The notes under the pieces were generated by a model. It was not told the DNA's origin. It saw nothing but the letters and a program-made list of their open reading frames with translations, and did no database searches. DNA of 36,458 nt from an uncultured Clostridium sp. (GTDB taxonomy: Bacteria; Bacillota; Clostridia; Clostridiales; Clostridiaceae): contig NZ_CAMQZG010000034.1 of NCBI RefSeq assembly GCF_947039605.1, positions 1 to 36,458 of the forward strand. The letters are read 5' to 3'. Of the stretch, positions 15,297 to 27,341 are shown piece by piece (within the stretch, counting starts at the first letter, position 1; each line of letters starts with the position of its first letter). The translations under genes and the position numbers were made by a program.

Positions 15297-15836
15297 TTAA
15301 AGACCATTTCTACACCATCTAACAAAACTATCACAATTATTTATTGCAAGATTATATCTATTTTCCCCAAGCCTACTATAAGCCCTCTTAATTGCATCTC
15401 TTTTCCTATGATGTCTTGGACTCTGACTTTCATTTTTTATAAATATCTTTTCTCCACATGCAAAATCTAAAAGTGAAGTTTCAGATACCTTTTCTTTTAA
15501 ATAATGTACTACTTTCCCTTTACCTACATATATTCCATGATGTGTATAAAAACATCTTTGGACATATAAATGCTCACCTATACTATAACAAAACTCTTCA
15601 TTATTCATATGTCTTGTAAGTCCATATATTGTAGCTTCTGTTCCATTTTTAGCTGTATCAACAAAATTATTAACTTTACTTATAACATCTCCATAAGCAG
15701 GGTTTATAGCTATACATTTCCTCTCTATCCCTCTTCTATTTTCCTTACTAATATTTTTCACCTTATTTATTACTGGTTTAGCCCCATTCCCTACTTTTTC
15801 TAAGAATTCACCAATATTCTTTTTTGAAAATTTCAT
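15297..15836 (-). CDS. LRAT-domain (NlpC/P60-fold) putative acyltransferase or hydrolase
   Basis: 179 residues, no signal peptide. Residues about 86-178 carry the lecithin:retinol acyltransferase (NC domain) signature: a GEHLYV start, HHGIYVGKGKVVHY with the catalytic histidine (H100) and second histidine (H111), and the nucleophile in NNCDSFVRWC (C168). Members of this circularly permuted NlpC/P60 superfamily act on lipid acyl groups or peptide bonds. The N-terminal 85 residues are basic and unfamiliar. GGGGGAG lies before the ATG. It stands alone between divergent and converging genes. Bacterial LRAT proteins are little studied, so the substrate is open. Confidence 0.8.
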   Translation of the reverse strand: MKFSKKNIGEFLEKVGNGAKPVINKVKNISKENRRGIERKCIAINPAYGDVISKVNNFVDTAKNGTEATIYGLTRHMNNEEFCYSIGEHLYVQRCFYTHHGIYVGKGKVVHYLKEKVSETSLLDFACGEKIFIKNESQSPRHHRKRDAIKRAYSRLGENRYNLAINNCDSFVRWCRNGL

Positions 15837-16034: not shown

Positions 16035-17090
16035 ATGACAAATGCACCAAAGGCAATAAGATTAGAAGGCATGAAAAATTTATCAGGTAAGAAGGAAGAT
16101 AAAGATAATATTTACTTCTACCTAGATTTTAGATTTAATTTACATAAGATGGGTGATTCAGCTAGTGGAGTTTCACTATATAGAATTACACCTATTAACT
16201 TTGATAATATGCTATTAAAAACTTTTAGTAAAAAAACATTTCCTGCTAAAGGATTTTCAACAATAGAAAGTACTAATGTAAAAAAAAGACTTAAAGATAT
16301 CTTTGATCAATTAGTAGCAGTTAAAGCTAAAAAAGATACTGCAAGAAAAGCTTATGAAAAAGCTAAAAGAGAAGGAACTCTTCCTGAAGAAGAACCTGTA
16401 CTAGCTAAAGAAGATAAACCAGTAAGAAAAGGACAACATCTTGAAAGAAGTGAATTCAGAAGAAAACTTGCTGAAAAGAAGAATCCCAAAGTTGCTGCAG
16501 ACTCTTATAGAACTTACCCATCAAAGGTAAAATCAGAATCTACTGAACCAGCTAAACCTGCTAAAGCAACTGGACATAGTTTTGATAAAGCTTTCGGAAA
16601 AGCTAGACATATCAAAAAGAATGAAGATTTTAAAAGAGATAGAAACTTTGAAAAGAATGAATCATTTAACTTTGATAAAGAAAAAAAGGTAGCTACTGAT
16701 AAACCTTATAGCAAAGATAAATCATTTAGTAAGGATAAATCTTATAGCAAAGATAAATCATTTAGTAAGGATAAACCTTATAGCAAAGATAATTCATTTA
16801 GTAAGGATAAATCTTATAGCAAAAATAAACCTGCTGGTAAATTTGATTCAAGAGATAATCAAAAATCTTTTAATAGAGAAGATTCATCTGCTGCTGGAAT
16901 GAATAAATTCAACAAAAATAGCAGAGAATTTAGCAAAGACTCTAAAGATTCTAAATTTGATAATGAAAGTAAATTTAATAGAAGTTCAAAGCCTGCAAGT
17001 AAAAATAAACCTGCTGGTAAATCTTTTAGTGGTTCAAATCCATTTAAAGGTAAAGGTTCTAGACCTACATCAAGTAGAAATAACTACTAA
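16035..17090 (+). CDS. Basic protein with disordered repeat-rich C-terminus
   Basis: 351 residues. Residues 1-100 may be a small folded domain (DNIYFYLDFRFNLHKM and on); no family recognised. Residues 100-351 are low-complexity, rich in Lys, Ser, Asp and Asn, and strongly charged. A 12-residue unit, (P/S)YSKDKSFSKDK, is repeated 3.5 times (about 224-265), and the tail resembles the basic C-termini of RNA-binding proteins such as DEAD-box helicases. A role in nucleic-acid binding or condensate formation is only a suggestion. AAAGGA precedes the ATG, and TATAAT at 15969-15974 could be its -10 element. No signal peptide, so cytoplasmic. Confidence 0.65.
   Translation: MTNAPKAIRLEGMKNLSGKKEDKDNIYFYLDFRFNLHKMGDSASGVSLYRITPINFDNMLLKTFSKKTFPAKGFSTIESTNVKKRLKDIFDQLVAVKAKKDTARKAYEKAKREGTLPEEEPVLAKEDKPVRKGQHLERSEFRRKLAEKKNPKVAADSYRTYPSKVKSESTEPAKPAKATGHSFDKAFGKARHIKKNEDFKRDRNFEKNESFNFDKEKKVATDKPYSKDKSFSKDKSYSKDKSFSKDKPYSKDNSFSKDKSYSKNKPAGKFDSRDNQKSFNREDSSAAGMNKFNKNSREFSKDSKDSKFDNESKFNRSSKPASKNKPAGKSFSGSNPFKGKGSRPTSSRNNY
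16704..16829 (+). repeat. 36-bp tandem repeat, 3.5 copies, inside the basic protein gene
   Basis: Units at 16704-16739, 16740-16775, 16776-16811 and a half unit at 16812-16829. Units differ by one to three bases, so the expansion is recent. Each encodes 12 residues and the frame is kept. Confidence 0.95.
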
Positions 17091-17617: not shown

Positions 17618-18856
17618 ATGAGTAAAATTAAAAAGCCATTACTTACACTTGGTGCTATTGGAGCTACTTTCTTTCTTGTAAATACCTCATTAAACAAATT
17701 TGATGAAGTTCTTGCTAGGTCTAATATAAACACAGAACTTGAAACATCTAATATTGAATTATCACTTAATCAAAAAAAAGATAGTTTAAATCAGAAAATC
17801 ATTCCTTTAAACAAAATAGTTGGGGATGACACTATAAAAATAATATTTGAAGATTATATGATAGATGGAGATAATATACTTATTGGAATTTCAGAGATAC
17901 AAAATTTAGAACCTTCAGACTATAAAGTTCAAAGTCCAGATGACTATAAAGAATACTTAACCTTCCTTAAATCTGAGTTTTTAAAAAATAAAGATAATCT
18001 TAATAAATTTGGACAAGTTGTAGATTCTATGAAAATTGATATTTTTGATGGAAAAGAAATTGATATAGAGGCTTTTAATCTACCAGAAGATATAGATTTT
18101 TTAGAAATGCTTCTTAAAAAGCTTGAAAAAGCTTATGATTGGGGATTATCTGATGAAGGTTTTTATACTACTCTAGAGGAGCAAATGTTTCATGTAGGAT
18201 TTGAACCTTTTGCTACAGGAGAATTATCAGTTTTGGTTAATAATCAAAAAGTTGAATTAAATCTTTTTGATTCTCCTGTTTCTCTTAATGAAGATTATTT
18301 AGATAAGCTCAACTTCAATATTTCTAAAACTAAGAATACTACTTTAAAGCATCTAGACTCAATGAAAAATAAAACTGAGCAAAATTTTAATATTAAAGAA
18401 TATACTATTGGCTTTAGAATACCTGAAGAATTTAAAAAAACGACAGATTTAAACATCTCAATATCTTTTAATAACTTTAAAATTTCTGAATATTATCCTG
18501 TTACATATGATAAAGAATTTAAAACTAATTTTACTATAGATACAAATGATTTAGATGAAAACTTTAAAGTAATAAAACTTACTACTGATGCTTCACTAAA
18601 AAAAGATAATATAGAATTCCTTGAATATAGAGAAACAGATTATACGAGTGAATTTATTTATGAAATTAAAGGCTCTAGCATAGGTCCTGAACTGCTAACT
18701 TATACACCACTAACTTTTAGTGCTGTTACTGATGAATATTCAAAAGATAGAACTGTTCGTTCTATTAAATTTAATAAAATCACTGCTGAATCTGTAGATG
18801 TTAACCTTGCGAAAAGTCATGATGATGCTAGAATTATAAATATTAAGTTAAATTAA
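17618..18856 (+). CDS. Membrane-anchored extracytoplasmic protein, function unknown
   Basis: 412 residues. One N-terminal helix (about 6-23) anchors or exports it. The rest is rich in beta-type sequence with repeated immunoglobulin-like stretches, such as NISISFNNFKISEYYPVTY (about 279-297) and IKLTTDASLKKDNIEFLEY. The layout recalls DUF4179/DUF5643-type outer domains of Firmicutes, but the anti-sigma zinc finger of such proteins is missing, and I cannot confirm the family. AAAGGAG lies before the ATG. It is followed by a bidirectional terminator that it shares with the EET locus end. Confidence 0.6.
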   Translation: MSKIKKPLLTLGAIGATFFLVNTSLNKFDEVLARSNINTELETSNIELSLNQKKDSLNQKIIPLNKIVGDDTIKIIFEDYMIDGDNILIGISEIQNLEPSDYKVQSPDDYKEYLTFLKSEFLKNKDNLNKFGQVVDSMKIDIFDGKEIDIEAFNLPEDIDFLEMLLKKLEKAYDWGLSDEGFYTTLEEQMFHVGFEPFATGELSVLVNNQKVELNLFDSPVSLNEDYLDKLNFNISKTKNTTLKHLDSMKNKTEQNFNIKEYTIGFRIPEEFKKTTDLNISISFNNFKISEYYPVTYDKEFKTNFTIDTNDLDENFKVIKLTTDASLKKDNIEFLEYRETDYTSEFIYEIKGSSIGPELLTYTPLTFSAVTDEYSKDRTVRSIKFNKITAESVDVNLAKSHDDARIINIKLN

Positions 18857-18923: not shown

Positions 18924-19892
18924 CTAATATTCTCTCTCTAAAAGTTGTTGTGTAACCTCTTTTAGTATATCTCTATATTCATTCTCTGGAAGCTTACTTA
19001 TATTTTTAAATGCCTTTGAAGTATACTTTAGTGCTAATGCTTTGGCCTCTTCTACAGCACTACTATCTCGTACAATATTCATTATAAGTTCTATATCCTT
19101 ATCACTATACTCTTTTTTATCTAAAATATCATTTAATTCTTTTATATTCTTTTTTTGCGCCATTAAAAGAGGTAATGTGTATACTCCATCTTTTAAATCA
19201 TTAGAACAGTCTTTTCCTGTTTTAAAACTATCTACTGAATAATCTAATATATCATCTATTATCTGAAAAGCCATCCCTATATTATGCCCTATCTCCCAGA
19301 ACAATCTACAAGTTTTTTTACTACATTTGCTCTCTGCTGCACCAAGATATAAACTTAAAGAAAATAACTTTGCTGTCTTTCCTGATATTCTCTTTAAATA
19401 TTCCTTTACAGTTACATTTCTATCATACCTTGAATTTAGTTGTTCTACCTCTCCAAGACATATATCAGTCATAACCTTTGTATCAAGTTCTATCCCTCTT
19501 TCTATTGAGGATGTTGTAGCTAATATTTTAAAACATAAACAGAATAAGTAATCCCCTATATACACCGCATAATTTTTCCCATGCTTTGCCTGAACAGTTT
19601 CTTTCCCACGACGAAGCATTGCATCATCAATTACATCATCATGCACAAGTGTTGCCATATGAAACATTTCTATAACTGCTGATATCGCTACTGTTCGCTC
19701 CTCATTATACTCACCAAATTTTGATGCGATTATAACAAAGGCTGGTCTTAACATTTTCCCACCCGCTTCTAACATTTCTATAATACTCTCTTGTATTACT
19801 TTATCTTTACATTTTGAATTTTTTCTTATCTGATTTCTAACTTCATCTAATTGTTTATCAATTATAGGATAATCATTCCAAAAATTATTCAT
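18924..19892 (-). CDS. Polyprenyl diphosphate synthase (EET-locus DmkB-like)
   Basis: Trans-prenyltransferase that extends farnesyl or similar diphosphate with isopentenyl diphosphate to make the side chain of (demethyl)menaquinone. 322 residues, the usual length. GGKMLRP (44-50), the first aspartate-rich motif DDVIDD (85-90) and the second DDILD (212-216) are intact. The residues at positions -4 and -5 before the first motif are small (Thr, Ala), which fits a long-chain product. It lies next to ndh2 on the same strand, as in the Listeria EET locus, where DmkB supplies a separate demethylmenaquinone pool. The partner prenyltransferase (DmkA) is not in the window. GAGGGG precedes the ATG. Confidence 0.93.
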   Translation of the reverse strand: MNNFWNDYPIIDKQLDEVRNQIRKNSKCKDKVIQESIIEMLEAGGKMLRPAFVIIASKFGEYNEERTVAISAVIEMFHMATLVHDDVIDDAMLRRGKETVQAKHGKNYAVYIGDYLFCLCFKILATTSSIERGIELDTKVMTDICLGEVEQLNSRYDRNVTVKEYLKRISGKTAKLFSLSLYLGAAESKCSKKTCRLFWEIGHNIGMAFQIIDDILDYSVDSFKTGKDCSNDLKDGVYTLPLLMAQKKNIKELNDILDKKEYSDKDIELIMNIVRDSSAVEEAKALALKYTSKAFKNISKLPENEYRDILKEVTQQLLEREY

Positions 19893-20041
19893 TTTATCCC
19901 CTCATCTTTTCTGTTAAATTTGTTATTTTACGTATGCTATACTACTATTCTAATATAAAACACTATACTTTGGTGATTAACTTTTTCAAAATTTTTTCTA
20001 TAAAAATTATCTTTCTGTTTATAATTTTGAGATAAATATCC

Positions 20042-20071
20042 AAAAAGGAGCTATTTTACTAGCTCCCTTTT
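20042..20071 (-). terminator. Terminator after ndh2
   Basis: AAAAAGGAGCTA faces TAGCTCCCTTTT around 6 bases; the minus-strand tail is CCTTTTTGG. It would separate ndh2 from the polyprenyl synthase gene. Confidence 0.75.
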
Positions 20072-20080
20072 ATGATTATC

Positions 20081-21997
20081 TTATTTTAAGTTTGTTGTTT
20101 TCCCATGAATATCATACATAGGCTCTCTTTTTCCCATCCAGAAGTTACCTGTAAACTTACTTATCATAGGCATTACATAATAATCTAAACCAAATGTTCT
20201 TCCTGCACCTTGCATTAGAGCTATACTTCCAAATGTAAACCATAAGATTTCCCATCCTGCCATAGCTGATAATATAAAGTTAACAGTCATAAATGCTGAT
20301 GCTGCACTTGCAAGGAATGTAAATAATCCAGCAATTAATGCAAGACCAATTGCAATTTCTGTAATTACAACTATTCTTTGGAACCATACTGCAATTTCTG
20401 GTGTTGGCATCATAAATTCCATCATGCTCTCATAAATACCTGGCATTTCTTTAAATATAGGAGCTGGCATATTTGTTGTAGCCTCTGCAGCCACGCTTGC
20501 TCCTGTAACTCCATCTTGAAGCCATGTAAATGGCATTTTAACATTTCCCATCTTCATCCAACTATCCCATCCAATAGTTAAGTTTGATGCTAATACTTCA
20601 AAATATTCAAATATTCCATCTGCCTGTCCAGCTTTTTCTAAAGCTTTCTTAAATGTTTCTTCACCTATAAGCTTTTTAAACCCTTCAAGGAACCAAAGTG
20701 CTCCTATATAAAGTCTTAAAGGTATTAGCCATAGTCTATTTCCTTTTGAAGCTAAATGTCCTCTTAAAATACATCTTCTCTCTTTCATAGCAAAGAATTC
20801 ATGTTGAAGGTAATTATATACCGCATGTACATCATTAACTTGAACTAAATAAAACATATTGATAATATGCTTCATAACCATTGCAAAGAATCCTGAAAGT
20901 TTAAAGCCCATAAGATCTGCTACTGCATATCTTCCACCAATTGAAACCATAAATCCATGATAATTAGGTTTAAACTCCACTTTTTCTTTTTTCTCTATAT
21001 CTGCAATTATATTTTTAGCCGCTGTTATTGCTGTTTGTTCTGCTGCCTCAACAATTTGTGGGTTTCCTTTACCCTCTTCAACTTCTATATATGCTATATC
21101 ACCTACAACATAAACATTTTCCTTTCCGATTGCTTCCATATACTTGTTAGTAGCAAATCTTCCAGCTCTTGCTTTTTTAATTTCTAAAGACTCTAAATCT
21201 TTATTTGCTTGAATACCACAAGTCCATATTAGAGTTTCAGTTGGAATTACCTCTCCACTTTTAAGTTTTATATTTTCTTTTTTAACTTCTACTATTGGCG
21301 ATTCTTTTAAAATTTCAACTTTATGCTTTATCATATACTTTTCAGCTTTATCAGCTTGTTTTCTATCAAGCATATTAAGTATTGTAGACATAGCCTCAAC
21401 AACTAATATTCTAATTTCATTTACATCCACTCTATACTCTCTAGCAAGTGTTTCTTTCCACTCTAAAAGTTCTCCTGCCATTTCTATACCAGTAAATCCT
21501 GAACCTGCTACCACAAAAGTAAGCATTCTTTTTCTTATTTTTTCATTTCTTTCAAATGAAGCTTTCTTTACTCTATCTTTAATATGAGCTTTAATTTTTA
21601 AAGCATCCTCTAAAGACCATAATGTAAATGCATTTTCTTTTACCCCCGGAACGCCAAAAAATGCTGGCTCACTTCCAGTTCCAATTATTAAGTAATCATA
21701 ACTAAAACTTCCATTGGTTGTTTTAACTATTTTTTTCTCACTATCAACATTCTCTATAAGGTCAACTACTACATCAACTTTTGTTCTGTGAAATATTCTT
21801 GATAACTCAATTTTAACAGACTCCTTTGGAACTCTTCCCCCAGCAACTTCATGAAGTTCTGTCATAAGAGTATGATAAGGATTTTTATCTATTAACGTAA
21901 TAGTTACATCCTTATTCTTTTTATATTTTCTTGCAAGCTTTTTTGCTGCATGAACTCCAGCATAACCAGCTCCTAAAACAACTATATTTTTTGTCAT
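20081..21997 (-). CDS. ndh2: Type II NADH dehydrogenase with C-terminal DoxX-like membrane domain (EET Ndh2)
   Basis: Oxidises NADH and reduces quinone at the inner face of the membrane without pumping protons. Residues 1-400 are a two-dinucleotide-binding-domain flavoprotein: FAD site GAGYAG (9-14), NADH site VAGSGFTGIE (163-172) and the FAD-contacting VYVVGD (295-300). Residues about 425-615 are a membrane region with four or so helices and a DoxX-like segment (AGLFTFLASAASAF), absent from ordinary NDH-2 (about 400 residues). This long form, 638 residues here, is the one found in Listeria flavin-based EET, where Ndh2 feeds a dedicated demethylmenaquinone pool. Context agrees: ApbE, FMN-lipoprotein, EetA- and EetB-like genes adjoin. 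AGGGGG precedes the ATG. Confidence 0.93.
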   Translation of the reverse strand: MTKNIVVLGAGYAGVHAAKKLARKYKKNKDVTITLIDKNPYHTLMTELHEVAGGRVPKESVKIELSRIFHRTKVDVVVDLIENVDSEKKIVKTTNGSFSYDYLIIGTGSEPAFFGVPGVKENAFTLWSLEDALKIKAHIKDRVKKASFERNEKIRKRMLTFVVAGSGFTGIEMAGELLEWKETLAREYRVDVNEIRILVVEAMSTILNMLDRKQADKAEKYMIKHKVEILKESPIVEVKKENIKLKSGEVIPTETLIWTCGIQANKDLESLEIKKARAGRFATNKYMEAIGKENVYVVGDIAYIEVEEGKGNPQIVEAAEQTAITAAKNIIADIEKKEKVEFKPNYHGFMVSIGGRYAVADLMGFKLSGFFAMVMKHIINMFYLVQVNDVHAVYNYLQHEFFAMKERRCILRGHLASKGNRLWLIPLRLYIGALWFLEGFKKLIGEETFKKALEKAGQADGIFEYFEVLASNLTIGWDSWMKMGNVKMPFTWLQDGVTGASVAAEATTNMPAPIFKEMPGIYESMMEFMMPTPEIAVWFQRIVVITEIAIGLALIAGLFTFLASAASAFMTVNFILSAMAGWEILWFTFGSIALMQGAGRTFGLDYYVMPMISKFTGNFWMGKREPMYDIHGKTTNLK

Positions 21998-22142
21998 ATT
22001 TCCCCCTATTTATCCTATTATGTATTTCACTAATATTCTAGCTACATTAACAAAGCTTGTCTATCTACTATAAACTCCCAATTAATAGTTAGTATCTATC
22101 ATTTCATATTTGTTATCGCCTATAATTAGCCATTCAAAAGAG

Positions 22143-22196
22143 GTTATGGTATCTTTTATGCACTTTTAGTTATTCAAATTATCTATGAACCATAAC
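22143..22196 (-). terminator. Possible terminator after the LysR gene
   Basis: GTTATGGT and ACCATAAC (8 bp plus a wobble) enclose 38 bases; the minus-strand tail is CTCTTTTG. A second pair, TTAGTTATT/AATAACTAA, is interleaved. The loop is long, so this is tentative. Confidence 0.35.
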
Positions 22197-22208
22197 TTTT
22201 TTCAATAA

Positions 22209-23096
22209 CTAACCTACACTTTTAATTTCATTTAAAAATATTCTGTCTTGATTACATTCTTTTAAAATAAGTTCTATTTCTTTAGAAAATTTAGTTATTT
22301 TTCTTTTTATTGATACATCTAAGCTTTTTTTATAAATTACAAACAAATCATATTTCAAATTATATTTTTCTATATTTAGCTCATAAAAATCCGAAGATTT
22401 TAACTCTTCTAAAACTGCAATTCTTGGCACTACCGCAGCTGTATTATCACCATCCAAATAATTTTTTACAGTTGACAACGAATTTGTTATAAATTTTACA
22501 TTTCTTTCTTTTATATCATTAAGGCACTCTGTCCCATCATCTAATAATGCAACATTTAATTTTTTAATTGAACTTATACTAATTTTCTTTCTACTTATTA
22601 AAATAAATTCATCACTACCAATATTTTTTGATATAATATCAGAATCTTCTATTTTTTTTGTTCCAACTATTACATCTGTATTATTATTTATAATAGATGA
22701 ATGCCAATCTTTATCTATCTGAGTGCTAAGCTTTAAATCTAAATCACCAAAGATATTAAACATCTTGCTTGAAATATTAGAAACTAAAAACTTACTTGAT
22801 ATGCTTGATATATTTATTCTTACATCATTTTTTAACTTTGTAGAAATTTCCATATCCTGAAAAAGTCTTTCATAACCTGATAAAATATTCTTTGCATGCT
22901 TATAAAGTATCTCTCCCTGTGCTGTTATCTCAACACCTCTATTACTTCTTTCAAATAAACTTGCACCAAGCTCTAATTCAAGCTTTGATAGCTGCTGACT
23001 AAGAGCTGGTTGTGATATATGTGACTTACTTGCTACTTTTGTTATACTTTTTAGTTCTGCTACCTGAACAAAATATTTTAAACTATCTATTTGCAA
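22209..23096 (-). CDS. LysR-type transcriptional regulator within the EET locus
   Basis: 295 residues. The N-terminal winged helix-turn-helix is typical: FVQVAELKSITKVA followed by SHISQPALSQQLSKLELELG (about 26-45) and FERSNRGVEITAQG. Residues 90-290 fit the effector-binding domain. Its start is TTG (23094-23096) with AGGGGG 8 bases upstream. It begins only 13 bases after the apbE stop, so the two form an operon, and ndh2 follows. Location suggests that it controls the EET genes; the co-inducer is unknown. Listeria's locus, as I recall, has no such regulator. Confidence 0.92.
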   Translation of the reverse strand: MQIDSLKYFVQVAELKSITKVASKSHISQPALSQQLSKLELELGASLFERSNRGVEITAQGEILYKHAKNILSGYERLFQDMEISTKLKNDVRINISSISSKFLVSNISSKMFNIFGDLDLKLSTQIDKDWHSSIINNNTDVIVGTKKIEDSDIISKNIGSDEFILISRKKISISSIKKLNVALLDDGTECLNDIKERNVKFITNSLSTVKNYLDGDNTAAVVPRIAVLEELKSSDFYELNIEKYNLKYDLFVIYKKSLDVSIKRKITKFSKEIELILKECNQDRIFLNEIKSVG

Positions 23097-23109
23097 TCTA
23101 GATTCCCCC

Positions 23110-24141
23110 TTAATTCATAACTTTAAAGTCTTCATTTAAAAGATTAAAACTATCTTTTATTCCTACACTTTTATAAATTTCTTTACTATTTGATACAAAA
23201 ATTGCTTCTACACCATCAATACTTTCAATAAACTCTAGTCCCTCATCAATTCCCTTAGTAAAAACTAAAGTAGATAAAGAATCTGCATCTATTGATTTAT
23301 CGGCTATTATAGTCACACCTGCAATTTCAGTTTCATAAGGATATCCTGTTTTAGGATCTAGCACATGGTGATATTTTGCATCTCCATCTTCTATATATCT
23401 CTCATATACACCTGTTGTAACTATTGATTTATCAGATAAAAGTATACTTCCTATTGCACTCCCTCTATCAGCAAAAGGATTTTGAACTCCTATTTTCCAT
23501 TTTTGATTTTTAGCCTTTTCACCCATAACATAAATATTTCCCCCAAGGTCTATTACAGCTTTTTCTACCCCCTCATTTTCAAGTACTTCAACTACCTCAT
23601 CAGCTGCATATCCTTTTGCAATACTTCCAAGGTCTAAAATCATTTCTTTCTCTTCAAGAAATACCTCCTCATCATTAATTTTCACTTTACTATAATCTAT
23701 ATTTTCTAAAACTTCCTTAATTTCGTTCTCTGTTGGAACTTTTGCCTCTGGAAGTCCTATACTCCAAAGTTTAACAAGTGGCCCAATGCTTATGTCATAA
23801 CTTCCTTTAGATAAATTAGAATAATGAAGTCCTTTTTCAATTATCTCAATACTATCTTTACTAAGTTTTACAGGTCTTACCCCTGCATTTTTATTTAGCT
23901 CCCCAATCTCTGTTCCCTCTTTATTTATAGAAACTGTATCCTCAATTTCTTTTATTCTCTCAAATGCCTTGTTTATAGATTCTTCATTTTCATGATTATA
24001 TAAAGTTATCTTTACAGATGTCCCCATAAATAACTCTGTTCTACTCATCGCTTCTACTTCATTATCTGAGCCCCCCTTAGAACATGCAGATAAAGTTAAC
24101 CCCATTGTAATTATTAAAAAAAAGATGCTTTTTCTAAGCAT
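23110..24141 (-). CDS. apbE: FAD:protein FMN transferase, ApbE-family lipoprotein (EET FmnB-like)
   Basis: Takes FMN from FAD and links it to a threonine of a partner protein outside the membrane. The 343-residue protein has a lipoprotein signal peptide with lipobox LSAC (C20), then the ApbE domain: DLGSIAKGYAAD (170-181), HHVLDPKTGYP (258-268) and metal-binding DADSLST (285-291). Its likely substrate is the FMN-binding lipoprotein encoded upstream at 24334. An in-frame TTG at 24156 would add five residues, but GAGGTG sits just before the ATG at 24139-24141, so that ATG is chosen. Operon with the LysR gene. Confidence 0.95.
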   Translation of the reverse strand: MLRKSIFFLIITMGLTLSACSKGGSDNEVEAMSRTELFMGTSVKITLYNHENEESINKAFERIKEIEDTVSINKEGTEIGELNKNAGVRPVKLSKDSIEIIEKGLHYSNLSKGSYDISIGPLVKLWSIGLPEAKVPTENEIKEVLENIDYSKVKINDEEVFLEEKEMILDLGSIAKGYAADEVVEVLENEGVEKAVIDLGGNIYVMGEKAKNQKWKIGVQNPFADRGSAIGSILLSDKSIVTTGVYERYIEDGDAKYHHVLDPKTGYPYETEIAGVTIIADKSIDADSLSTLVFTKGIDEGLEFIESIDGVEAIFVSNSKEIYKSVGIKDSFNLLNEDFKVMN

Positions 24142-24274
24142 AATTTCACCTCGCAAAACTCACTTTTTGTATTTTTTTGTCATTACCTGATTATACAGTA
24201 CTTTTAATAAATTTATTTTAAATGCACTATTATTTAATTCTTTATTTACAGAGTGTCTATTTGTAAATAAAAAA

Positions 24275-24300
24275 AGCCATATTGATAATTCAATATGGCT
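24275..24300 (-). terminator. Strong terminator after the FMN-lipoprotein gene
   Basis: AGCCATATTGA pairs with TCAATATGGCT around 4 bases and runs into TTTTTTTATTT on the minus strand, so the lipoprotein gene is transcribed alone or in excess over apbE. Confidence 0.9.
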
Positions 24301-24333
24301 CTATATCTATTTAATTTTTAAATTTTCAAATTC

Positions 24334-24813
24334 TTACTTAACTTCTACTAATTCTTTTTCTGTATTTCCTTCATTTGCATTAGTTATAGCTTCACTAATT
24401 AAAGTTTTAGCTTTAGCTGATGAACTTGTAGCACCACTAACCGCATCAAATTCAGCTGATTGCTTAGCCATAACAGCCTCTTCAATTGCAACTTCATACT
24501 TAGCTGGACTTGTTCCTGCTTTTTCTTGCATCATTTCATTATACCCAGCATCTTCTCTTTTATCACCTTTTTCTGTGAACTCATTGTATTTAACCTCTAC
24601 AATCTTTCCACCTTCAAATTTAACACTTGCTCTAGCTTTTCCACCATTCTCATCAGCATCTTTAGTTTCAACTTCATATAACCCATTAGTGATAGCACCC
24701 TCAGTTGTCTCTGTAGATGTTCCTTCAGTTTTTGCTTCTTCATCTCCACCACATGCAGCAAATGTTAATGCAGCCATTGGTAATAATAACATAGCTAATA
24801 TTTTCTTTTTCAT
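24334..24813 (-). CDS. FMN-binding lipoprotein, PplA-like electron carrier of EET
   Basis: Extracellular lipid-anchored flavoprotein expected to pass electrons from the membrane to outside acceptors. Signal peptide with lipobox FAAC (C21), a Thr/Glu-rich linker (to about 40), then one FMN-binding domain ending in DAVSGATSSS (123-132), where T129 is the expected site of covalent FMN attachment by ApbE. Listeria PplA has, as I recall, two such domains; this 159-residue protein has one. Start ATG, with AGGGGG upstream. Its promoter region is shared with the divergent EetA/EetB-like genes and contains the palindrome at 24897-24916. A strong terminator follows. Confidence 0.92.
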   Translation of the reverse strand: MKKKILAMLLLPMAALTFAACGGDEEAKTEGTSTETTEGAITNGLYEVETKDADENGGKARASVKFEGGKIVEVKYNEFTEKGDKREDAGYNEMMQEKAGTSPAKYEVAIEEAVMAKQSAEFDAVSGATSSSAKAKTLISEAITNANEGNTEKELVEVK

Positions 24814-24896
24814 AATTCTAGTCCCCCTATTTTTAATGAATTAAATTTCAAGTCAAATTTTGGACTTAAAATTCCTTATGTCTGATTATATAACCA

Positions 24897-24916
24897 ATTA
24901 ACTATTTTTAGTTAAT
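24897..24916. promoter_or_regulatory. Palindrome between divergent EET promoters, candidate LysR operator
   Basis: ATTAACTA-TTTT-TAGTTAAT is a perfect 8-bp inverted repeat. On the minus strand a TATAAT (24890-24885) lies 6 bases away, so the palindrome covers the -35 region of the FMN-lipoprotein promoter. A possible plus-strand -10 (TATACT, 24984-24989) lies further on. Confidence 0.45.
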
Positions 24917-25025
24917 AAGAAAATTTTATACTACATTCATTTTTCCTATTACTACTATTTTTCGTTCTCTTTTAAAATGATATTATACTTTATTAAGTAA
25001 ATTTTAAAATAAGGTGGCTATACAA

Positions 25026-25424
25026 GTGAAAATTCTAAAAAAACTAGATATAGTAGTTATCCTTTTTCTTATTATAATATCTTTTACTCCACATATAATT
25101 TTAGCTAGGTCTTTAAATAAGGATTATGATACAAAATATGTGGAAATTAAAGTGGATAATAAAGAATATAAGTCTATTAATATATCTAATATAGCAAGTA
25201 CACAAAAATTTGAAATTAAAACTGATAAATCACTTAATATAATACATATAGAAAAGGCTACAGTTAAAATTATACACGCTAACTGCAAAGACTCATTATG
25301 TGTAAAACAAAAATCTATTTCTAAAGTTGGACAAAGTATTATTTGCCTACCAAATAAAGTCGTAGTAGAAATTAAAGGAGATATGAATAATACTTCAGAT
25401 GAAGATATTATTCTTTCACATTAA
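25026..25424 (+). CDS. NusG domain II-containing membrane protein (EetA-like)
   Basis: 132 residues: one N-terminal helix (about 6-25) and an extracytoplasmic NusG-II domain with the typical core C-KDSLCVKQ (about 86-95) and GQSIICLPNKVVVEIKG (about 104-120). In flavin-based EET loci a protein of this kind (EetA) is paired with a Gx transporter-like protein (EetB), and both are needed to move electrons from quinol to the outside, by an unknown mechanism. A GTG at 25014 is in frame, but AAGGTGG at 25011-25017 is the ribosome site for the GTG at 25026-25028, which I take as start. Two bases separate it from the next gene. Confidence 0.87.
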   Translation: MKILKKLDIVVILFLIIISFTPHIILARSLNKDYDTKYVEIKVDNKEYKSINISNIASTQKFEIKTDKSLNIIHIEKATVKIIHANCKDSLCVKQKSISKVGQSIICLPNKVVVEIKGDMNNTSDEDIILSH

Positions 25425-25426
25425 AT

Positions 25427-25954
25427 ATGCAAAATATAAAAAAACTAAAAGATACTAGAAAATTAGTCTATTTATCACTTTTAACATCACTTGCTTTAAT
25501 ATTATTTATCTTTGAATCAATGATTCCTATGCCAGTTATAACACCTGGTGCAAAACTTGGGCTTGCAAATCTTATAATAATGGTATCCATATACACCCTT
25601 GATTCATATAAAGATGCGCTAAAAGTCCTTTTACTTAGAATTTTTATTGTTTCATTATTTTTTGGAACACCATCCATGATTATATATAGCCTTAGTGGTG
25701 GCCTTTTAAGTTTTGGAATAATGATTTTTCTAAAGAAATTCTTTGGAAAACATCTTTCACTTATAGGAATAAGTGTAAGTGGTGCTGTCTTTCATAATAT
25801 AGGACAACTCTTTGCAGCTTGTCTTATACTAGAAAATTTTGGAGTAATGCTATATTTACCAGTATTATCACTTGCAGGAATCGGAACAGGTGTATTTGTT
25901 GGTATTTCAGCTGATTTTATGATAAAACATCTTAACAAATTACTATATAAATAG
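25427..25954 (+). CDS. Gx transporter family membrane protein (EetB-like)
   Basis: 175 residues with five or six membrane helices and the family mark PGAKLGLANLIIM (about 40-52). The family (Pfam PF07456) is often mislabelled heptaprenyl diphosphate synthase component I, but is an ECF S-component-like membrane protein. With the EetA-like gene directly before it (2 bases apart, no separate ribosome site, so translation is coupled) it forms the EetAB pair of flavin-based extracellular electron transfer. Proposed role: electron transfer from demethylmenaquinol across to extracellular flavin. Transcribed away from the rest of the locus. Confidence 0.88.
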   Translation: MQNIKKLKDTRKLVYLSLLTSLALILFIFESMIPMPVITPGAKLGLANLIIMVSIYTLDSYKDALKVLLLRIFIVSLFFGTPSMIIYSLSGGLLSFGIMIFLKKFFGKHLSLIGISVSGAVFHNIGQLFAACLILENFGVMLYLPVLSLAGIGTGVFVGISADFMIKHLNKLLYK

Positions 25955-26071: not shown

Positions 26072-27241
26072 TTATCTAACATTATTTAAAATTATCTTTG
26101 TTGTCTCACCAATATCTCTTATAAAATCTAAACTTTCAAGTCTCATACTATATATATCAAGCTCTCTTAACCCATGTAACTGCCCAAGTGATTTTGTATT
26201 TTCTATAATAACATTACGTAATTTTAATTTATGAAGTCTTTTAAGTTCTATAAATGCAACTACATCATTTAAATTTATATCCTCTAATGTTAACTCTAAA
26301 AGATATCTTATATACTTGAAATTTTCTATTTCTTCATCACTTAATGCATAACCTGATATTTCAAGTTCTCTTAAATCCTTTAAGTTTGAAAGGTATGAAA
26401 GACCTTCTATTTCTCTTGCTACAATTCTAAGTCTTCTTAAATTTTTCATGTATCTTACTATTTCAAGGGATATAGTATCAAGTGCTCCAAATAACCCTTT
26501 TGATAAACTTAATATTTTTACCCTCTCAAGGTTTGCAAGGGATATTTCACCATTTGATATTTTTGTTTTTTGGAATACTACAAGATTATTAAAGATTATC
26601 TCCCACTGCTTATCAATCTTTATCATAATTACTTCTCTCTTACCTGTAGAAAGCTCAACTCCATATACATAAGCATTTCCCTTATTCCATGACACAACAC
26701 TTATATTTTCTATTTCTTTAACTTCTAATATGCCATTACTTAATTTATCTAAAACTAAATCTAAAAAATCATCAAAACTATCAGCAATTAAATATGCTTC
26801 ATTCTTTTCTGTATTAATAACTATAACCTGTCCATACTGTCCATTTACATCTGGATTTAAATCAAGTGCTAAATACTTTCCCTGAAAATCTTCCGCAAAA
26901 GGAATCCACTCTTTTTTATATTCACCAACTTTGAGTATTCTCATATTATCATCTTTTATATTTATTTTTTTCTCTTTTATTTGTTCAATCTGACTATTTA
27001 TGCTATCTATGTCCATCCACTTCATCCCAAGCATACTTCCATACATCTTACCTTCTGCTTCTCCATTATATAGAAGATATAAGTTTTTAAACTCTTTAGG
27101 TAAATTTGTTCCTGCAACCTCTTCTAAACCCTCTAACATTGCCTCTGTTGCTGGAATATTTAATAATTCATGTATACTCTCTATGTAATTACTTAATTCG
27201 TCGATAAATTTACATTTCCCTAAATTTTCTTTTACTTCCAA
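26072..27241 (-). CDS. SUKH (SMI1/KNR4) domain fused to leucine-rich repeats
   Basis: 389 residues. The N-terminal 180 residues are a SUKH domain: LPKEFKNLYLLYNGE, KKEWIPFAEDFQGKYLALDL and NPDVNGQYGQVIVI resemble the SUKH protein at 7395. Residues about 240-389 are irregular leucine-rich repeats (LRRLRIVAREIEGLSYLSNL, LRELEISGYALSDEEI, LHKLKLRNVIIENTKSLGQL). Such a fusion could be an immunity or interaction protein, with the repeats binding a partner; no toxin gene is adjacent. A GTG at 27256 is in frame, but GGAGG (27249-27253) lies between it and TTG at 27239-27241, so TTG is preferred. Cytoplasmic; stands alone, ended by a strong terminator. Confidence 0.8.
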   Translation of the reverse strand: MEVKENLGKCKFIDELSNYIESIHELLNIPATEAMLEGLEEVAGTNLPKEFKNLYLLYNGEAEGKMYGSMLGMKWMDIDSINSQIEQIKEKKINIKDDNMRILKVGEYKKEWIPFAEDFQGKYLALDLNPDVNGQYGQVIVINTEKNEAYLIADSFDDFLDLVLDKLSNGILEVKEIENISVVSWNKGNAYVYGVELSTGKREVIMIKIDKQWEIIFNNLVVFQKTKISNGEISLANLERVKILSLSKGLFGALDTISLEIVRYMKNLRRLRIVAREIEGLSYLSNLKDLRELEISGYALSDEEIENFKYIRYLLELTLEDINLNDVVAFIELKRLHKLKLRNVIIENTKSLGQLHGLRELDIYSMRLESLDFIRDIGETTKIILNNVR

Positions 27242-27341
27242 AATAAAATCCTCCACCTTTAAACATATTCTCTAATCAAACTACTTATTAACATAATTTT
27301 ACCATATTTATGGCAATTGTAAAAATTATTTTATCATACAA

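Follow-up and report, generated by a model that had tools for sequence, protein, structure and literature searches.

A Listeria-type flavin-based electron transfer locus without dmkA in an uncultured Clostridium, probably fed by a quinone precursor from outside

Flavin-based extracellular electron transfer (EET) is encoded in Listeria by a locus with the order dmkA-fmnB-pplA / ndh2-eetA-eetB-dmkB, and a corresponding locus operates in Lactiplantibacillus plantarum. According to the sections covered of the papers cited here, to which all statements on these papers refer, the chain starts in both with the NADH dehydrogenase Ndh2, FmnB flavinylates the lipoprotein PplA, and EetB is needed for the export of flavin adenine dinucleotide (FAD) (PMC9888254, PMC9973259, PMC10746273, PMC9094743). 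The quinone that feeds the chain is called an 'unidentified demethylmenaquinone' in Listeria (PMC9094743), and in L. plantarum 'yet to be identified' pathways are expected to serve quinone uptake (PMC10746273). Outside 1,4-dihydroxy-2-naphthoic acid (DHNA) feeds EET in this quinone auxotroph, in which dmkA is dispensable for much EET (PMC9888254, PMC10746273). Here a locus of this kind is analysed, which occupies positions 18924-25954 of a 36,458-nt stretch of DNA (the window) from the draft genome of an uncultured Clostridium (the host; 3.5 Mb in 99 contigs, 97.6% complete, 3.7% contamination), together with a six-gene module on another contig.

By gene content and synteny, the window locus belongs to the Listeria type of flavin-based EET loci, as a variant without dmkA and with a one-domain PplA. 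Its seven intact reading frames are dmkB, ndh2, a LysR-type regulator gene, apbE (fmnB) and pplA on the minus strand and eetA and eetB on the plus strand. It is likely, with a probability of roughly 0.75, that the locus encodes a flavin-based EET chain, which would be fed by a quinone precursor from outside. An earlier note, made from the letters of the window, had proposed such a locus in a clostridial genome and had named six of its parts, all of which were recovered by domain searches (PF00348, Pyr_redox_2 with a DoxX/DoxD-like part, PF02424, PF04205, PF07009 and PF07456); the LysR gene (22209-23096, minus strand) within the same interval had not been mentioned. The claim that the locus matches the Listeria EET parts list did not hold in the form given, since DmkA is encoded in 15/15 Listeria loci and not in the window locus.

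The proteins held in common with Listeria are Ndh2, FmnB/ApbE, PplA, EetA, EetB and DmkB, with identities to those of L. farberi of 52% (over 633 aa), 44, 31, 40, 43 and 47%, respectively. Unlike in Listeria, PplA is a protein of 159 aa rather than 303, the LysR gene lies inside the locus (0/15 Listeria loci), eetAB is divergent from the other genes, and MenD over the cut-off is lacking in the host genome. The Pyr_redox_2 domain of Ndh2 (PF07992, 145 bits) is followed by a DoxX/DoxD-like C-terminal part at 517-615 (28 and 26 bits) with hydrophobic segments at 542-579, which represents the extra C-terminal membrane domain of the long form. The best NCBIfam model for DmkB was heptaprenyl diphosphate synthase component II (263 bits, under the cut-off of 457), and dmkB shares the locus of ndh2 in 15/16 fetched relatives, once as a partial open reading frame (ORF).

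ApbE has the features of an exported flavin transferase, namely the PF02424 domain, a lipobox read in the sequence and a nearest solved structure, 7esa (E 1.8e-93), which we take to be Listeria FmnB. Reading of the sequence together with relatives favours ATG 24141 as the start of apbE and GTG 25026 as that of eetA. Both PF02424 and FMN_bind (PF04205) matched once in the draft genome, at apbE and pplA of this locus, which leaves PplA as the one candidate client of the flavin transferase. The nearest solved structure of PplA is 3o6u (CPE2226, E 5e-26), presumably a C. perfringens protein. In PplA, GAT at 127-129 within DAVSGAT, placed by the consensus of the flavinylation motif, makes T129 the predicted flavinylation site, in agreement with the earlier note. 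EetA has one hydrophobic segment, which is N-terminal. PF07456, the family marker of the FAD exporter EetB (PMC9973259), has a single match in the genome, and the ten matches to the energy-coupling factor S-component family (ECF-S, PF12822) are candidates for RibU.

The features of the locus are listed in Table 1. Because terminator-like hairpins follow pplA and ndh2, it is probable that pplA, apbE-LysR, ndh2, dmkB and eetAB form separate transcripts; four such hairpins were found in the region against 1.8 expected. An Rfam scan of the window gave no match.

Table 1. Positions of genes and other features of the locus in the window
Feature	Position	Strand	Evidence or remark
dmkB-like long-chain polyprenyl diphosphate synthase, 322 aa	18924..19892	-	PF00348, 219 bits
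Terminator-like hairpin (intrinsic) between ndh2 and dmkB	20041..20072	-	13-pair stem
ndh2, long type II NADH dehydrogenase with C-terminal membrane domain, 638 aa	20081..21997	-	
ndh2/LysR gap, 211 bp, with candidate LysR site 22167-22209	21998..22208		dmkA position in nearest relative
LysR-type regulator, 295 aa	22209..23096	-	PF00126, 74.5 bits
apbE/fmnB, flavin transferase lipoprotein, lipobox LSAC	23110..24156	-	PF02424, 294 bits
Terminator-like hairpin (intrinsic) after pplA	24273..24302	-	
pplA-like FMN-binding lipoprotein, one domain	24334..24813	-	PF04205, 29.3 bits (cut-off 22)
Divergent pplA/eetA intergenic region	24814..25013		conserved block 24910-24952 and -10-like TATAAT
eetA, membrane-anchored NusG domain II protein	25014..25424	+	PF07009 (NusG_II), 104 bits
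eetB, predicted ECF-S-like FAD exporter subunit	25427..25954	+	PF07456, 157 bits

The locus is not a chance assembly, since a close Ndh2 (E < 1e-50, our threshold) was found in 22 of the 58 genomes searched, host included, and since all six core genes are present together at 40 of the 79 named loci, which include those of Listeria; any Ndh2 match at E ≤ 0.001 was present in 51/58 genomes. These 79 loci are the best of 550 relatives, and counts refer to the fetched flanks, many of which are cut by contig ends: DmkB was encoded in 76, EetB in 63, ApbE in 61, PplA in 58, a MenA-like protein in 58, EetA in 53 and LysR in 25. In the Listeria loci, DmkA, DmkB, PplA, EetA and EetB were found in 15/15, and ApbE was called in 13/15. 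By our grouping, thirty Clostridium-titled loci occur among the relatives of the same scan, so the occurrence of an EET locus in this genus has precedents. Identity to the nearest relative is 61-82% for ApbE, PplA, EetB, DmkB and Ndh2 and 44-49% for EetA and LysR. The Ndh2 proteins of Romboutsia weinsteinii (L097) and Faecalimicrobium dakarense (L098) are 78% and 77% identical to that of the window, and because we take these organisms to belong to another family than the host, the EET island has probably moved between families.

In C. mediterraneense (G002), which has the same gene order, dmkA lies between the LysR gene and ndh2 (L027:11093-12037), the place at which the window has a gap of 211 bp. 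The genome search for dmkA that the earlier note had suggested was carried out with the C. mediterraneense DmkA and returned, in the host genome, only a diverged UbiA family protein on contig C35, here called UbiA2 (31% identity, E 2.1e-11). Two UbiA matches are present in the host genome, on contigs C24 and C35. That on C24 was rejected as DmkA, as it passes the cut-off for decaprenyl-phosphate phosphoribosyltransferase (272.5 vs 234 bits). UbiA2 is the sole MenA-like gene of the genome, yet it scores below every cut-off.

A pathway for the quinone head group was not found in the host genome, in which MenD and MqnA/D were searched and MenF, MenH, MenC, MenE, MenB and MenG were not: no MenD exceeded the cut-off (best 70 bits vs 244), and PF02621 (MqnA/D) had no match. 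MenD-type matches of 70 bits are common in these genomes and were taken for acetolactate-synthase-type enzymes. These two results make an outside source of the head group probable, in the form of a DHNA-like precursor. Among the 22 genomes with a close Ndh2, MenD over the cut-off was found in one and PF02621 in none. The earlier note had held that the absence of any demethylmenaquinone pathway would refute it, and this was borne out in part, in that neither MenD nor MqnA/D was detected, but a UbiA, diverged and unlinked, does exist. Neither DmkA nor own DHNA synthesis was treated as defining for EET, since EET persists in L. plantarum without a functional dmkA and since DHNA synthesis is present in Listeria and absent in L. 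plantarum. The comparison with L. plantarum (PMC9888254, PMC10746273) lowered our confidence in self-sufficient EET, but not in EET supplied with a quinone or flavin from outside.

The UbiA2 gene is one of six closely spaced, intact genes at C35:8282-14092 (L212:282-6092), which encode an ATP-binding cassette (ABC) ATPase, a binding lipoprotein of family 1, two permeases, UbiA2 itself and a protein of 273 aa with the fold of a substrate-binding protein (SBP). The importer is of the sugar type. The SBP-fold protein has no hydrophobic segment and is cytosolic, and in structure matching MqnA/D or Thi5 folds were tied with plain binding proteins. No match to the UbiA2 profile was obtained among PDB sequences at E ≤ 0.1, and none to UbiA2 on plasmids. 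C35 could in principle be foreign to the host genome; its GC content of 0.28-0.30 is close to the 0.27 of the window.

UbiA2 occurs at 59-66% identity in nine further genomes (206 searched at family level) and also in R. weinsteinii and F. dakarense, which gives 12 organisms including the host. Within the DNA fetched, the same module neighbours accompany it in all of them, with the complete six genes in ten and a partial set in R. weinsteinii and F. dakarense. The module is located inside the EET cluster in seven of the 12 organisms, in two arrangements. In five it is followed by convergent eetB-eetA and then by the pplA-to-dmkB run, and in the other two, C. thermobutyricum and an uncultured Clostridium, the order is ndh2-dmkB-module, and the spacing of the module from dmkB is 12 and 1 bp. 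In a tree of 52 of 53 UbiA sequences, UbiA2 formed a separate clade (support 0.99). MenA-like matches (E ≤ 0.001 to UbiA2), which span more than one clade of this tree, were present in 20/22 genomes with a close Ndh2 vs 1/36 others (Fisher p 2.5e-12, a value made too small by shared descent). A second MenA-like match at E ≤ 1e-8 was present in G076, G083, G087, G105 and G113 and absent in the host (G000), G122, G081, G120 and G101, an absence that is likely and not certain because the UbiA2 query reaches type-1 DmkA only at about 1e-10. Four genomes (the host, G122, G081 and G120) combine an EET cluster with UbiA2 as the sole MenA-like match at this threshold. In the open-licence papers covered, no description was found of a linkage between the UbiA2 module and EET, nor of a module that acquires quinone for EET.

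These findings allow the tentative suggestion that the UbiA2 module could be the quinone-acquisition arm of EET systems. Some clostridia, including the host, might then, on a reading of the sequences that we regard as possible and still doubtful, run EET on a quinone precursor taken up by a dedicated ABC importer, with UbiA2 replacing DmkA and the SBP-fold protein serving as a sensor or enzyme. With 21/22 close-Ndh2 genomes lacking MenD over the cut-off and seven organisms linking EET genes to an importer and a prenyltransferase, the module offers a testable lead on the quinone question.

Regulation was considered through a block upstream of pplA (24910-24952), which is conserved in an alignment of 13 intergenic regions of relatives, one of them just 28 bp long. 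A similar sequence lies upstream of the window ndh2 (22167-22209), and both blocks are candidate LysR operators. The block was scored in 11 regions including C35, not all of them independent, with a matrix that omitted the organism's own site and with 1000 shuffles per region. The score upstream of the window ndh2 was reached by 2 shuffles; upstream of cluster-linked modules it was reached by 2 (L203), 4 (L204) and 10 (L206), and upstream of the ndh2-dmkB-module run by 19 (L205) and 10 (L207). The block was not found upstream of ndh2 in L095 (657/1000) and L203 (480/1000). An apparent sharing of the block between pplA/eetA and C35 (0/200 shuffles) was discarded, as it came from a matrix holding the window's own site; without that site the score was reached by 852/5000 shuffles. 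A block score at the level of C35 was matched by 59/729 tiles of host-genome sequence. Because the block recurs at cluster-linked modules and not at C35, L208 and L209, the data support co-regulation for cluster-linked modules but not for that of the host genome.

Gene identities, synteny, the absence of dmkA from the locus and the conservation and linkage of the module in relatives can be read directly from the DNA, and they suggest the following scheme, in which the activities, the electron path, the acceptor, the importer cargo and the role of UbiA2 are all predicted. Ndh2 would oxidise NADH and reduce a membrane quinone, the polyprenyl tail of which would be made by DmkB. The prenyltransferase step, assigned to DmkA in relatives, would most likely be carried out by UbiA2, and the C35 ABC importer may bring in the head-group precursor. 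EetB would export FAD, and flavin mononucleotide (FMN) from this FAD would be linked to T129 of PplA by ApbE/FmnB. Electrons would then pass from the reduced quinone, through or beside EetA, to PplA, which would reduce Fe(III), free flavins or further acceptors outside the cell, so that NAD+ is regenerated for fermentation.

Several observations tell against this proposal. For the binding protein of the importer, the nearest match is a manno-oligosaccharide binder (E 2.7e-36). The first Asp motif of UbiA2 is altered (NExxA-type, AExxG in the host, vs NNYxD in type-1 DmkA), because of which UbiA2 may not prenylate DHNA, and in the tree its clade stands apart from type-1 DmkA and from the MenA encoded near menD in G019. 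The module lies away from EET genes in 5/12 organisms (the host, G076, G083, G105 and G101), and the regulatory block was not found at the three stand-alone modules tested, where its score was reached by 180 (C35), 742 (L208) and 155 (L209) of 1000 shuffles. Among the genomes with a stand-alone module, the host and G076 (C. nigeriense) carry EET loci; around the dmkA-like genes of G083 and G105 no other EET gene is present in the stretches covered, a genome-wide EET search not having been made there. C. mediterraneense has EET genes without UbiA2. It is a serious possibility, if somewhat short of an even chance, that the module is unrelated to quinones and consists of a sugar importer and a prenyltransferase for another lipid that were co-carried by shared transfer; the binding protein, the altered motif and the stand-alone modules without the block all favour this. 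On the flavin side, PplA reached 76.7 bits with the NCBIfam exception model for PplA (NF041941, 302 positions), below its cut-off of 325. In addition, C. intestinale is reported to lack NosR-ApbE and to be unable to reduce Fe(III) oxide (PMC13134045, 2026; the strain may be another than DSM 6191). The locus of C. intestinale DSM 6191 (L117:7162-12785) contains pplA, ndh2, eetA, eetB, dmkB and a LysR gene, and no apbE was found in the 17.9 kb read, the rest of the genome not having been searched. This case is consistent with a requirement for ApbE and cautions against predicting the phenotype from Ndh2 and EetAB alone. The C. intestinale locus is also a possible natural test of the ApbE requirement.

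The chain might also work without a prenylated quinone, with Ndh2 reducing free DHNA-like quinones or flavins of neighbouring organisms that shuttle to PplA or straight to iron, dmkA having been lost as dispensable and dmkB being a relic or serving another role. We regard this as conceivable and rather unlikely: dmkA is gone while the neighbouring genes stay syntenic, and in L. plantarum neither a dmkA nor a dmkB mutation abolishes EET when DHNA or riboflavin is present (PMC9888254), but dmkB is intact beside ndh2, a MenA-like gene is kept in all except two of the genomes with a close Ndh2, and the UbiA2 operon of the host is intact. That the locus is decaying and inactive, with the loss of dmkA as the first step, is improbable, for although dmkA is missing and the related C. 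intestinale locus is without apbE in the stretch read, the seven frames are intact, the T129 motif is kept and five of the encoded proteins remain 61-82% identical to those of the nearest relative (44-49% for EetA and LysR). A role of ApbE, EetB and the FMN lipoprotein in a different flavinylated system, for example Rnf or the NosR-ApbE module proposed for iron-reducing Clostridium, is very improbable. EetB was over the cut-off in 22/22 genomes with a close Ndh2 and also in 18/36 others, because of which EetB alone is not specific for an EET locus. The long Ndh2 and dmkB are, however, linked to the FMN lipoprotein, and Rnf or NosR is disfavoured as the real client of ApbE by the single FMN_bind match of the draft genome, which is PplA of the locus.

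Several other features of the window were recorded. Just past eetB, 26072-27256 encodes a SUKH-1 (SMI1/KNR4) protein with a C-terminus resembling leucine-rich repeats, at the position where some relatives carry the UbiA2 module. Convergent with dmkB is a gene for a 412-aa protein without Pfam or NCBIfam match (17618-18856). Further away are a gene for an LRAT-family protein (PF04970) at 15297-15836 on the minus strand and an ORF at 16035-17090, the product of which is rich in Lys, Ser and Asp and has no Pfam match, and which contains a 36-bp tandem repeat (16698-16829; 3.7 copies, 93% match). At the contig end, 35137-36453 encodes a glucosaminidase-domain protein with choline-binding repeats and has 60-bp tandem repeats.

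Compared with other known systems, the NosR-ApbE module proposed for iron-reducing Clostridium likewise represents an ApbE-dependent flavin route, but it uses a NosR-type FMN protein and not PplA/Ndh2 (PMC13134045), and the host has no second FMN_bind match. The flavin-based locus of L. plantarum has the EET genes and the need for an outside quinone, DHNA, in common with the reading preferred here; unlike the host, L. plantarum has dmkA, and the UbiA2 module is not mentioned in the sections covered of these reports (PMC9888254, PMC10746273). With C. mediterraneense (L095) the window locus shares the order eetB-eetA / pplA-apbE-LysR-[dmkA]-ndh2-dmkB and an Ndh2 that is 82% identical, whereas that organism carries dmkA within the cluster and another dmkA-like gene outside it, and no UbiA2 was found there. 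C. sardiniense (L096/L206) and C. thermobutyricum (L104/L205) resemble the host in that the cluster has no type-1 dmkA and UbiA2 is the sole MenA-like match, and they differ from it in carrying the module inside the EET cluster, whereas that of the host lies on another contig.

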